Positions 1-3,717 of a stretch of DNA of 38,776 bases are shown one piece after another. The DNA is taken from positions 1-38,776 of IMG/VR virus record IMGVR_UViG_3300048836_001224; one strand, written 5' to 3'. The notes under the pieces are model-generated. The model was not told where the DNA came from. It worked only from the letters and a program-made list of their open reading frames with translations, and made no database searches. Both the position numbers and the translations under genes were made by a program. Each line of letters begins with the position of its first letter. The first letter of the stretch is position 1. Source of the DNA: a virus.

Positions 1-1131
1 TCACGCGCATGGCGCCACCCCCCCCAAGTAGCGAAACCCTTGCACGGCGCGAAAATGCCCTCCGTACCCTGAACCTCGCATAACAACTCCGGCGCGCGCG
101 GCCGATCGGTCGATGCTTGCGCGGCTGCGCCCCTTGTGCTGCCCCACCAATGCGGCCGACACCTGCGTCCAGCGTGGCGAACGGCGCAGGGCACTGGCAA
201 GACCCGGGTGGCTGGTATGAAACAACGCGGGCATCGGTCGGCCGTAGCGGTTGTCGCCCACGCGCCAGCGCTCGCAGACGGCGTCCAAAAACCGCAGGCC
301 GACGCCGGCGCCCTGCCACTCGGGCATGACGACCAGGCGGCAGGCGCGCGCCTCGTTCCGGCTACGGGTGCTGACGGCAACGTGCGCTACGCGTTGGCCC
401 TCAACCGTTGCCACATAGTTGGTTGCGGCAATCATGCGCGGCAGCTTCAGATAGTGATGCGGCTCAAAGGCCGCCCAGTGCTCCCAACCGCACTGCCAGA
501 GCTCCACGTCGATGCGCGGTCGGCGCCGAAGCCACCCCCGAGAAAAGCGCCCGGTGGCCGTGTCGAAAACCCAGTCTGGCTGCACCCAGTCCAGGATGTC
601 GTAGTGGCAACTCAAGAGCACCACCTGCCCAGCCGTCCGGCGCCACGCCTTGGAAAAGGCGCCGGCGCCGACGCGCGCGATCTGCCGGTCCACCACGCTC
701 GAAAATTCATCGAGCACTGCACGCTTGGGTGCCTCGGAGGTCAGCCTGGCCAGATTCGCACGGAACTGCTCGCCGTTGGAGAGCACGCGGTACGGCCGCA
801 GCCAAGTAGGCACGCTCCCCAGGCCCACGCTGGAGAGCGCGGCCGCAACGCCGTCAAAGCCCCCCTCCGGGGTGATGGCGTCGATGATGGGTGCATCGTC
901 GGGCCACGCGGGCGCATAGACCGCCTCTGCGCCCCACAGCGCGCGCCCCATACTGGTTTTGCCGCTGCCGCTTGGGCCGACGATGACGCCGATCTGCCAG
1001 GGCGCGCTTTCCAGGTCGAGGTCTGCCTCCAGATGGAAGTTGGCGCCGCTGTCGACGTTGAAGAGAGACTTCACGCGCGCGGCGCGGTAGCTGTTGAAGT
1101 CCTGGCAGTTGTGGCGGATGGCGACTTTCAT
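1..1131 (-). CDS. ABC-ATPase/GNAT fusion protein, Mom-position DNA-modification candidate
   Basis: This 376-residue protein joins two domains. An ABC-type ATPase is seen as Walker A GPSGSGKTS (52-60), signature LSNGEQ (117-122), Walker B RAVLDEFSS (137-145) and an H-loop histidine (176). A GNAT acyltransferase fold follows, with an HHY motif (225-227) and the acyl-CoA loop EWQGAGVG (271-278). The ATG at 1131 was chosen because it overlaps the preceding stop as ATGA; a longer frame to 1209 would run into the upstream gene. It is the last gene of an operon headed by com. In Mu, com is followed by mom, whose GNAT-fold product modifies adenine in phage DNA. I infer a comparable DNA-modifying role, with the ATPase as an added module. 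There are no transmembrane segments, so it is not a transporter. Domain calls are firm; the modification role is inference. Confidence 0.85.
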   Translation of the reverse strand: MKVAIRHNCQDFNSYRAARVKSLFNVDSGANFHLEADLDLESAPWQIGVIVGPSGSGKTSMGRALWGAEAVYAPAWPDDAPIIDAITPEGGFDGVAAALSSVGLGSVPTWLRPYRVLSNGEQFRANLARLTSEAPKRAVLDEFSSVVDRQIARVGAGAFSKAWRRTAGQVVLLSCHYDILDWVQPDWVFDTATGRFSRGWLRRRPRIDVELWQCGWEHWAAFEPHHYLKLPRMIAATNYVATVEGQRVAHVAVSTRSRNEARACRLVVMPEWQGAGVGLRFLDAVCERWRVGDNRYGRPMPALFHTSHPGLASALRRSPRWTQVSAALVGQHKGRSRASIDRSAARAGVVMRGSGYGGHFRAVQGFRYLGGVAPCA

Positions 1132-1301
1132 ACGCACACCACCTTCGGGCGCATGCCCAGCCGCGTCAGGCGCGCAAACAGGCGTTGCTGCTCGTGCTCG
1201 TCCTGGCACGGCACGAGCAGGCCGAACTTGGGCTTGTACTGGAAGCCATTCTCACCTTGCCGGCGAAGTGCCGGCGCTTTCTTTGCTGTGCTATTTGCCA
1301 C
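1128..1301 (-). CDS. 57-residue conserved-looking protein between com and the ABC-GNAT gene
   Basis: A GTG-started gene of 57 codons. It overlaps the end of com by 11 bases and the ABC-GNAT start by 4 (ATGA), so all three genes look translationally coupled. The start is set by an AGGGGA ribosome-binding site about 8 bases upstream of GTG 1301. That site lies inside a hairpin at 1305-1326. The product has a basic N-terminus and a compact region running from YKPKFGLLV to a final KVVCV. It has no recognised catalytic motif; it could be a small partner of the ATPase or acyltransferase. Mu mom also starts with GTG behind a hairpin that Com opens, and this gene occupies that position. The function is unknown. 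Confidence 0.75.
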   Translation of the reverse strand: MANSTAKKAPALRRQGENGFQYKPKFGLLVPCQDEHEQQRLFARLTRLGMRPKVVCV

Positions 1302-1461
1302 TGTGCGTCCCCTGAGGGTTTGACGCGCCGCGGCGTTCTGGTGGGGGGCCCGAGGCCCTCATCTGGTTCAACACCCCGCAGCGGGGGCACTTGATCGAGA
1401 GTGCCGTGTAAACACCCTCGCCGAGTTTTCGGCGGCATCCGCCGCACCTAATTTCATCCAT
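1291..1461 (-). CDS. com: Com-like zinc-finger translational regulator
   Basis: A 56-residue protein with a four-cysteine zinc knuckle, C6-x2-C9-x15-C25-x2-C28, and a basic hydrophilic tail. Size, cysteine spacing and the motif IRCGGCRRKL match phage Mu Com, which binds mom mRNA and exposes its ribosome-binding site. The ATG at 1461 starts immediately before the DEIRC motif; an upstream in-frame start at 1548 would add about 29 residues absent from Com. No strong Shine-Dalgarno precedes it. The gene ends inside the next one, as Mu com overlaps mom. I infer that it activates translation of the 57-residue gene and the ABC-GNAT gene. Identification is strong from cysteine pattern plus context. 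Confidence 0.88.
   Translation of the reverse strand: MDEIRCGGCRRKLGEGVYTALSIKCPRCGVLNQMRASGPPPERRGASNPQGTHSGK
1305..1326 (-). promoter_or_regulatory. Hairpin sequestering the ribosome-binding site downstream of com
   Basis: On the minus strand the arms GCGTC and GACGC pair, CCC pairs with GGG inside them across a TCA loop, and AAA is bulged. The AGGGGA ribosome-binding site of the GTG at 1301 lies in the 3' arm, and the stem ends 3 bases before that GTG. This matches the logic of the Mu mom translation initiation region, where Com melts a stem to allow initiation. Binding of this Com to the stem is inferred. Confidence 0.6.
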
Positions 1462-1506
1462 TGCAAGCCTGTTATCTGTAGTGAAACATCTGATAGGCTT
1501 CGACCG

Positions 1507-1518
1507 CTCTCGCGAGAG
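1507..1518. promoter_or_regulatory. Palindrome upstream of com, possible operator
   Basis: CTCTCGCGAGAG is a perfect 12-bp palindrome, extended to 18 bp with one mismatched pair (CCG to TGG). It lies 45 bases before the com start in the only non-coding stretch of the tail/com region. No GATC occurs between 1462 and 1613, so the Dam/OxyR control known from Mu mom is not supported here. A transcription-factor site is the simplest reading. No convincing promoter hexamers were found beside it. Confidence 0.4.
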
Positions 1519-1567
1519 TGGCGGGTCTTCGCCTGGCTTGCAGGACAAGTCTGCAGGTTGGGGGCTT

Positions 1568-1591
1568 GGCAGGGTGTTCGCGCACCCTGCC
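1568..1591. terminator. Hairpin between tail genes and com operon, possible terminator
   Basis: GGCAGGGTG and CACCCTGCC form a perfect 9-bp stem with a 6-base loop. It lies about 22 bases past the stop of the leftward tail gene ending at 1614. A T7 run follows only on the plus strand, 12 bases after the stem, so it is not a canonical terminator for the leftward tail operon. It may end tail transcription before com by structure alone, or block rightward read-through. Confidence 0.4.
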
Positions 1592-1613
1592 AGGTCGCCC
1601 GTCTTTTTTTGCT

Positions 1614-1835
1614 TTAAATCACGTCCACAACCACCGCCAAATCCGGCGCAGGCCCCTGGATCACCCCCTCCTGCAAGAACACCTTGGCGCCGACGCTCGC
1701 TTGGCCCTTGGCGCGCAGCTTCCCGCCGCCGGGCAGCGTCACGGTGGCCACGCTGCCTGAAACCGCCGTCACCGTGCCCACCTGCATGCGGCCTGGCCCG
1801 AGCAGCGCTTTGAGCTCGTTAAGCACGTTAGGCAT
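1614..1835 (-). CDS. Small tail-tip protein, hypothetical
   Basis: A 73-residue protein starting eight bases inside the end of the upstream 629-residue tail gene. After a short N-terminal helix it is dominated by short beta-type segments with many valines, glycines and threonines, such as VGTVTAVSGSVATVTLPGGG. That pattern suggests a small beta barrel of OB type, as in tail spike or baseplate hub parts. It is the last gene of the tail operon before the com leader. The tail-tip role is inferred from position and composition. Confidence 0.7.
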   Translation of the reverse strand: MPNVLNELKALLGPGRMQVGTVTAVSGSVATVTLPGGGKLRAKGQASVGAKVFLQEGVIQGPAPDLAVVVDVI

Positions 1836-3717
1836 GGCTGTCGATCTCCAGCGACTGGGTCAGCACGGGGAACTGCTGGGCGATGGACGTGGCGCGCACC
1901 AGCCCCAGGCGCAGCGCGCCGACGTCGTCCGCATAGCGCAGCACCGTGCCCGGCCTGATTACGCCCGTCGCCGGCAGCACCGGCAGCGTCATCTTGTGCT
2001 TGAGCATGCGGCCCGATTCGGCCAGCTCGGCGATGGCGCGCTGCTTGGCGGCGCCCATGGTCGTGATCAGCGGGTGCAACGCCATAGGCTGCTTGAGCAC
2101 GTCGCCCGGCGTGCCGCCGCGCGTCAGGTCGGCCGCGTGGCCGCCGGCCTCGCCCGATACGAAGATGCGGTTGTAGCCGGGCAGGTCCACCACCTCGGTC
2201 TCATCGATCTCGGAGATGCCGGCGGGCAGCTCGATGTCGGGGGCCAGCGTGTCCCACTCCCACCAGGGCTTGGGCCACAGCGGCAGCACGCGCAGCACCG
2301 GGTCGGTGTCGTGCGGCTGTAGGTAGCCGCCGGCAGCGGCCGCGATCTCGGCCAGCGCGCTCGCCCAGGTGCCCTGGTGCATCCACACGCCCCCCGGCAC
2401 CAGCCAATCGGTGAGCCGGAAATCGACGCTCCAGCCGAAACCCACACCGTTGACTGTGAGCGCCTGCGTCATGAGCTGCTGGGCCGTGCGGTCCAGCGCG
2501 TTCGTGAACGTCTGCACCGGCGCGTGCGGCGCATCCAGCAGCGCCGCCTTGCCGCGCCCGGTTGCCGTGACCATGTGCTCAGGGAAGCGCCGGCTGCGGC
2601 CAATGCGCTCGGCCTGCAGCCGAAACGGCTGGTTGTTGACGCGCACCTCGAGCTCTATGGGCTCGCCGCCCGCGCCGGGCATCAGCGCATCGCGGGCAGA
2701 GGCGTGAAAGCTCGCCGAGAACGACCAGGTCCACGACTGGTGGTTGAGCTGCATGCCGAAGCTCTCGCTCGGCAGCGGATCGCCCGCCAGGTTGTCCACA
2801 CGGCGAATCTCGATGGAATTGATCACGACATAGCTCCTGCGCGGCAGCACCACGATGCCGGCGGGCGGCAGAACCCAGCCCGCCCGCTGGCAGACGAACA
2901 CCAGGCGTGCGACCCCGAGCGCAAGGTCTGTAAACACCAGCCGCCCGAGCGTTGCCGGGTCGTAGCACGGCTCGCGCGGCCGCACGACCGGGGGGACGTA
3001 CATGCCGGCGCCTGGGCGCATGGCGTCCTGCCAGTGCTGGCGCTGGGCAATCCACACGGGCAGCGCCGGCTCGTAGTGCGAGCGCACGGCCGCGCGCGCC
3101 AGCAGGCCCTGCTGGTAGTGGTGCAGCACGGCACAGCGCAGGCGCAAGGTTTCTTGCCAATGCTGGCGCGTGGCGCCGCGCACGTGCAAGCCCTCCTGGT
3201 AGCGCTGCAGCACCGCGCCGCGCAGGCGCTCGGCCTCTTGCCAGTGCTGGCGCGTAGCGCCGCGCACAGGCCCTGCGGCCTGGTAGCGCTGGTGCACCGC
3301 AGCGCGCAGGGGCTCGGCCTGCTGCCAGCGCGGCTGCAAGGCGCCGTGGCGCGGCTCGGCCTGCTGCCAGCGGGCCTGCAGGCCCGTGGGCATGGGCAGG
3401 GTGGCTTGCCAGCGGCTGGCAAGCGCTGCCGCCACGGGCTGGCCGCCTTGGTACACCGATTGCAGTTCGCAGCGTAGGCCGCCCCGGCTGACGTTGGCGT
3501 CCCACACCAGGGGCACATTGCCGGTGAAATCGTCGAGTGGCGCATCGAGCGCGGCCACCGCGCCGTAGACCAGTGCCAGATCGCCCAGGCCGGGCAGGTC
3601 CGCGTCCAGGCTGAAATTCGCGTCCGGCGCGCCGCCACCGGCGTCGCCCGTGTCTCCGAAAACAAGGCGCCCGGTACCGTCGTGCGGCCGCAGTAAAAGG
3701 AGCTTGCCTTCATCCAC
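1828..3717 (-). CDS. Tail-tip protein with eleven 14-residue repeats
   Basis: A 629-residue structural protein. Residues about 1-85 contain a DGTGRLVFGDTG-like segment related to motifs in neighbouring tail genes. Residues 88-241 are a run of eleven 14-residue units starting [RHV][WY]Q, for example RWQQAEPLRAAVHQ. The rest is a mixed region ending in a hub-like domain with WMHQGTWASALAEIAAAAGGYL and a beta-rich end. The gene lies in the distal-tail segment downstream of the tape measure, so a tail-tip or receptor-binding part is likely. It follows the upstream gene by four bases. The repeats could set a length or bind ligands; this is inference. Confidence 0.8.
   Translation of the reverse strand: MDEGKLLLLRPHDGTGRLVFGDTGDAGGGAPDANFSLDADLPGLGDLALVYGAVAALDAPLDDFTGNVPLVWDANVSRGGLRCELQSVYQGGQPVAAALASRWQATLPMPTGLQARWQQAEPRHGALQPRWQQAEPLRAAVHQRYQAAGPVRGATRQHWQEAERLRGAVLQRYQEGLHVRGATRQHWQETLRLRCAVLHHYQQGLLARAAVRSHYEPALPVWIAQRQHWQDAMRPGAGMYVPPVVRPREPCYDPATLGRLVFTDLALGVARLVFVCQRAGWVLPPAGIVVLPRRSYVVINSIEIRRVDNLAGDPLPSESFGMQLNHQSWTWSFSASFHASARDALMPGAGGEPIELEVRVNNQPFRLQAERIGRSRRFPEHMVTATGRGKAALLDAPHAPVQTFTNALDRTAQQLMTQALTVNGVGFGWSVDFRLTDWLVPGGVWMHQGTWASALAEIAAAAGGYLQPHDTDPVLRVLPLWPKPWWEWDTLAPDIELPAGISEIDETEVVDLPGYNRIFVSGEAGGHAADLTRGGTPGDVLKQPMALHPLITTMGAAKQRAIAELAESGRMLKHKMTLPVLPATGVIRPGTVLRYADDVGALRLGLVRATSIAQQFPVLTQSLEIDSHA
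2995..3456 (-). repeat. Eleven tandem 42-bp (14-codon) units within the tail gene
   Basis: Units run in frame and begin V/R/H then W/Y then Q. The middle units alternate HWQ and RYQ starts, giving a 28-residue super-period. Unit sequences have diverged (RWQQAEPRHGALQP, HWQEAERLRGAVLQ, HYQQGLLARAAVRS), so the array is old enough to be under protein-level selection rather than a fresh slippage product. Confidence 0.8.

Follow-up and report, generated by a model that had tools for sequence, protein, structure and literature searches.

Two of the described systems closest to the locus analysed here set the background. In phage Mu, com lies ahead of mom in a late position at the right end, mom starts inside com, and Mom has a GNAT fold. 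Separately, GNAT proteins coupled with an ABC ATPase have been predicted to place an acyl modification, of uncharacterised nature, on a DNA base, with QAX98348.1 as an example (PMC7824862, 2021). The window, meaning the whole stretch of DNA analysed, is a 38,776-base IMG/VR virus record of a Mu-like transposable phage, harboring transposase A/B homologues, a head maturation protease, a major head protein, a tape measure and tail genes. Like Mu, it places a Com gene ahead of and overlapping the next gene in a late, right-end position and encodes a GNAT fold behind it. Unlike Mu Mom, its system has an ABC domain, a 57-residue partner (P2) and a formyltransferase (FT) in addition. With the ABC-GNAT group of Iyer et al. 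it shares both domains and the predicted DNA-base acylation: the protein combines complete ABC motifs with a GNAT domain, which members of that group carry in one gene or in adjacent genes, and QAX98348.1 (locus L170) is a homologue (tblastn 6e-37, 35% identity, 75% of the query).

The first-pass annotation of this DNA had presented ABC-GNAT-based DNA modification as new or little described, but the idea is already a published prediction (PMC7824862). The text of that paper holds no Com, P2 or ParB-tail partner, formyltransferase of the formyltetrahydrofolate dehydrogenase (FDH) type, or exchange with mom or dam in Mu-like phages. P2, the FT gene, the link to Com and the slot swaps are likewise unmentioned in the literature found, which did not extend to the 2013 source paper, so that an earlier description is possible. 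New here are the DNA-modification slot, the equivalence of P2 with a ParB-like tail, and an FDH-type formyltransferase as the fourth gene. The main reading, to which we assign a probability of roughly 0.6, is that com, P2, ABC-GNAT and FT together form a late-expressed phage DNA-modification cassette.

Gene organization at the right end of the window

The com, P2 and ABC-GNAT genes overlap one another on the minus strand at the right end of the window, in agreement with the overlapping set of a com gene and genes of 57 and 376 residues reported by the first-pass annotation. The com gene (1291..1461) is followed by P2 (1128..1301) and by the ABC-ATPase/GNAT fusion (1..1131), whose residues 1-200 (532..1131) constitute the ABC half and residues 203-376 (4..525) the GNAT half. 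The stop codon of the fusion coincides exactly with the end of the record. The final ten bases of that strand, ATGCGCGTGA (1..10, minus strand), are the start of a cut-off FT gene: in an Oryzisolibacter prophage encoding an 89% identical relative (L086), the same ten bases form an identical overlap and open a complete FT gene in the frame ATG-CGC-GTG-ATG. Several proviral records (L007, L010, L018, L036, L049 and others) also end at most a few bases from the stop codon of ABC-GNAT and consequently lack the last genes of their prophages. Such ends appear to reflect a rule by which the virus caller sets boundaries, and the natural unit is com - P2 - ABC-GNAT - FT. Elsewhere in this region, a tail gene (1828-3717, minus strand) contains, at about 3010-3420, many tandem copies of a motif of approximately 16 residues, for example RQHWQEAERLRGAVLQRYQE.

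Com and its leader

The 56-residue Com protein matches PF10122 (Zn_ribbon_Com) above the cut-off (1.8e-12) and PHROG 6417, "translational regulator" (5e-17). Its four cysteines (C6, C9, C25 and C28), in the arrangement CxxC...CxxC, align with those of Mu Com, indicating a zinc ribbon whose presumed role is that of a translational activator of the next gene. P2 starts with GTG 11 nt within com, just as mom starts inside com in Mu, and by analogy this gene overlap suggests that Com may control the translation of P2. Predicted structure of the leader at the P2 start was weakly above that of shuffled sequences (mean z -1.4 across 40 related sequences). Between the last tail gene and com, the leader (1462..1613, minus strand) contains inverted repeats forming two hairpins (1465-1500 and 1560-1599), which are possible late control elements, and no sigma-70-like promoter was found in it. 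Methylases of the D12, N4/N6 and C5 types lie behind com in many Mu-like phages (L213, L215, L234-L313), and the methylase start is often located inside com.

The ABC-GNAT fusion

The 376-residue fusion starts at 1131 in an ATGA overlap with P2 and is matched along its entire length by PHROG 11143 (6.8e-151). As the first-pass annotation had claimed, it carries both a complete set of ABC ATPase motifs and a GNAT acyl-CoA loop. The ABC half (PF00005, 1.4e-6; Foldseek matches to ABC ATPases at E about 1e-7) contains a Walker A motif (GPSGSGKTS, 52-60), a signature (LSNGE, 117-121), a Walker B/D-loop (LDEFSSVVD, 140-148) and a switch histidine (His176), and these key residues are invariant or nearly so among 93 aligned homologues. 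The CoA loop of the GNAT half (PF13508, 1.5e-5), Q273-G-A-G-V-G278, is conserved to a similar degree in the same alignment, and an F-x-x-H-H-Y-L element at 222-228 is also conserved. An AlphaFold2 model shows two confidently predicted domains (pLDDT 88, pTM 0.83). Relatives are encoded in 52 phage records, 504 viral-contig stretches and 206 genome-contig stretches, and dN/dS is 0.07-0.16 (against relatives of 79-89% identity); together these results argue that the fusion is not a chance product. It is a genuine protein under strong purifying selection. In the Streptococcus phages MismyG (L174:2866-4850) and Javan141 (L004:3465-5467), ABC and GNAT are annotated as separate genes, flanked by a ParB-like gene and an ASCH-domain gene; the ASCH-domain protein, with its PUA-like fold, is possibly a reader of the modified base.

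Database names for the homologues in Streptococcus and Oenococcus phages ("ABC iron siderophore transporter") would suit a transporter-type ABC half joined to a resistance GNAT, that is, a cargo gene unrelated to DNA. However, the neighbours are P2 or ParB tails, FT, methylases and ASCH proteins, with no permease in the annotated loci viewed, on which ground the transporter annotation was rejected and a cargo role of this kind appears extremely improbable.

In a fold search of the PDB with the whole protein, the list was filled by ABC ATPases and is thus uninformative on the GNAT half, and a viral fold library yielded one full-length match, in Leptospira phage LE4. Searched separately, the GNAT half found RimI, Ard1 and similar proteins as its nearest solved structures (8-17% identity), so that by fold it most resembles generic or protein acetyltransferases, a point counted against the DNA-modification reading. 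TmcA (2zpa), the tRNA(Met) cytidine acetyltransferase that makes ac4C, appears at rank 39 of the matches. It provides a precedent for a single-chain ATPase and GNAT that targets a nucleic-acid base, and the fusion could in principle acylate tRNA or another RNA in the same manner. However, TmcA is a distant fold match only, its substrate is tRNA, and its ATPase is a helicase rather than an ABC domain. The late right-end slot of DNA-modifying enzymes and the ParB-like partner suit DNA better, making an RNA substrate very improbable.

The fusion takes the place of Mom but differs in sequence

Mu Mom matches the Mom family PF25680 at 2.1e-75, whereas the Pfam list of the fusion contains no match to this family at E<=1. 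An hhalign comparison of the GNAT half with a 12-member Mom alignment was not significant (E 0.08-0.28), only the HHY stretch being aligned, and beyond the HY element the Mom residues R101, S136, D139 and Y149 were not matched in the GNAT half. Conversely, the canonical CoA loop is present in the fusion of the window (QGAGVG) but absent from the Mom alignment. The PDB fold search ranks RimI/Ard1-type proteins nearest, and the Mom structure 8bv8 falls outside the 50 best matches of the GNAT half. Kinship with Mom is thus not borne out, and filing the fusion in the Mom family was rejected on Pfam, two hhalign comparisons and the PDB fold search. Judged by its sequence, the GNAT half does not belong to the Mom family, though the fusion occupies Mom's place. 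Aeromonas phage PX29 (L227, hit H36) encodes a Mom homologue as well as an ABC-GNAT, at distant positions of one genome, indicating that the two systems are not mutually exclusive.

The slot behind com is a site of gene exchange

The Mu-type and ABC-GNAT-type systems are directly interchangeable in Porphyromonas phages, where phage 012a carries Mom and phages 006a and 008a carry P2-ABC-GNAT-FT in the same slot. The flanks of this slot are homologous, being 84% identical over 1.7-2.9 kb upstream and 82% identical downstream, over the ~90 bases that remain up to the phage end. A second swap involves the window itself: in its closest relatives, as judged from the tail protein, com is immediately followed by a D12 Dam methylase. 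One locus, L215, is 70% identical to the window across the tail genes and on into com, as far as its 3' part; the two then diverge, with P2-ABC-GNAT following in the window and a D12 Dam methylase in L215.

The com gene was too rare in 369 sampled genomes for a survey, and viral contigs were used instead. Among 80 viral loci, chosen for the Com gene alone but ranked by likeness to a Com that precedes Dam, so that the Dam share is biased, com was followed by a D12 methylase in 55, by a different DNA methylase, called by motif, in 24 (four representatives were checked against Pfam, and that of L287 is visible in a shifted frame only) and by P2-ABC-GNAT in one. A DNA methylase is therefore located downstream of com in 79 of the 80 sampled loci. 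That the next genes all resemble DNA-modifying enzymes does not rest on the biased Dam share, and the slot behind com is a DNA-modification slot. In two loci (L295:3161-4174 and L299), the protein behind com has 337 residues and partial similarity to N6_N4_Mtase (1.1e-10), representing an unusual methylase. Com seems to be a general controller of phage DNA-modification genes, beyond mom.

The reading of the fusion as a DNA-modifying enzyme stems mainly from this exchange with mom, Dam and other methylases, and the DNA-modification role proposed by the first-pass annotation thereby gains support from context. The ParB and ASCH neighbours in Streptococcus phages were also counted for DNA modification. 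A different role, in host takeover, would have the GNAT half acylate a host or phage protein, with the ABC half as a sensor of ATP or DNA ends. The RimI/Ard1-like folds noted above are those of protein acetyltransferases, and there are phage GNATs, Rac among them, that acetylate RNA polymerase (PMC7824862). Nevertheless, the slot otherwise holds only mom or DNA methylases, mom is exchanged precisely within homologous flanks, and ParB-like and ASCH neighbours point toward DNA, rendering protein acylation improbable.

P2 corresponds to the tail of a ParB-like protein

The small partner protein proposed at first pass is nearly universal: P2, which matches PHROG 28816 (2.7e-14) in the window, was found in 162 of 165 loci, a set in which the window is counted twice and some near-duplicates occur. 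In distant phages of Gordonia, Arthrobacter, Pseudoalteromonas, Oenococcus and Streptococcus, approximately 40 residues of P2 recur as a tail at the C-terminus of a protein that is ParB-like, or similarly placed, and whose gene lies directly upstream of ABC-GNAT. The ABC-GNATs of these phages are mostly 33-38% identical to that of the window, with Gordonia phage NHagos closer at 57%. In a single control, Microbacterium phage MenE, the ParB preceding a stand-alone Mom has no P2-like tail; such a tail was also not found in Aeromonas phage AsFcp_2, Tenacibaculum phage pT24 or Nonlabens phage P12024S. The simplest reading is that P2 would be a docking or switching element for the ABC half, retained when Mu-like phages lost the ParB part.

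The fourth gene encodes an FDH-type formyltransferase

Of the 140 close-clade loci with at least 450 bases downstream of the fusion, 122 have FT behind it and 18 have no adjacent FT; in most loci FT overlaps the fusion stop, usually by a few bases. The window holds only the ten opening bases of the gene, and its family and catalytic residues are accordingly those of relatives. The FT of the Oryzisolibacter prophage matches PF00551 (Formyl_trans_N, 1.7e-19). Against solved structures, a 28-member FT profile matched the FDH hydrolase domain at 3e-38, MTF at 1e-24 and PurN at 6e-14. The catalytic residues H91/S93/D127, invariant in the relatives, correspond to H106/S108/D142 of FDH. At the position of the PurN asparagine, FT has a glycine, and FDH likewise lacks the asparagine. 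The match to the hydrolase domain of FDH (ALDH1L1), grouped here with the N-terminal domain of HypX, is almost full length and keeps the triad, but unlike FDH and HypX, FT is a stand-alone phage gene adjoining ABC-GNAT. FDH hands its formyl group to a phosphopantetheine thiol, and HypX has been proposed to formylate CoA (PMC6802093). This thiol transfer, together with the triad match, led us to propose FT as a maker of formyl-CoA for the GNAT half; from sequence relationships, formyl-CoA is a plausible donor.

Distant ABC-GNAT phages have no FT, which makes formyl an unlikely donor across the superfamily. In phage Jace (L167:4574-4999), the gene immediately behind ABC-GNAT, in the place of FT, encodes a PanD-like aspartate decarboxylase (PF02261, 2e-33), suggesting that the acyl group may differ between groups. 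Such ABC-GNATs working without FT, and the variation in accessory genes (PanD in Jace, ASCH in MismyG), also favour acylation of DNA from host acetyl-CoA or another CoA ester, with FT later formylating a leftover base amine or serving a separate step. Further steps on the base are common in hypermodification pathways. However, the FT gene and the ABC-GNAT stop overlap in most loci, and the solved proteins closest to FT give formyl to a thiol rather than to an amine-bearing polymer (PMC6802093). A host CoA ester as the donor is accordingly considered rather unlikely.

Proposed mechanism and significance

In the proposed cassette, Com would act late in infection, as it does in Mu, to activate translation of the overlapping genes that follow it. 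Phage DNA is probably acylated as a shield against restriction: in view of the genomic context, it is very likely that ABC-GNAT would transfer an acyl group from a CoA thioester to the amino group of a DNA base, thereby protecting packaged DNA. The intact ABC motifs and the near-universal linkage of P2 to the fusion suggest a role for ATP, which the first-pass annotation had pictured as an ABC ATPase powering or gating the acyltransferase; ATP binding by the P2-docked ABC half would, with reasonable likelihood, be coupled to DNA engagement or opening of the active site. More tentatively, FT could load formyl from 10-formyl-THF onto the CoA thiol, in which case the mark would be N-formyl or a derivative. 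The composite version, namely N-formyl on DNA bases made via FDH-like formyl-CoA and licensed by an ABC ATPase that a 57-residue, ParB-tail-like domain switches, is doubtful as a whole, but if true, the base modification, this use of formyl-CoA and the ATP-gated acyltransferase would all be new.

Carriers comprise hundreds of phages and prophages across many bacterial phyla, with Gordonia phages and a Pseudomonas phage as cultured examples; Gordonia phage NHagos has the order ParB-ABC-GNAT-FT, and Pseudomonas phage Komp_PAO1_1 has P2-ABC-GNAT-FT. For an enzyme group known from prediction only in the literature found, the locus offers testable chemistry, from a formyl thioester to a DNA amine, and a defined partner in P2. 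For Mu-like phages, it marks the com slot as an exchange site shared by mom, Dam, other methylases and ABC-GNAT-FT.
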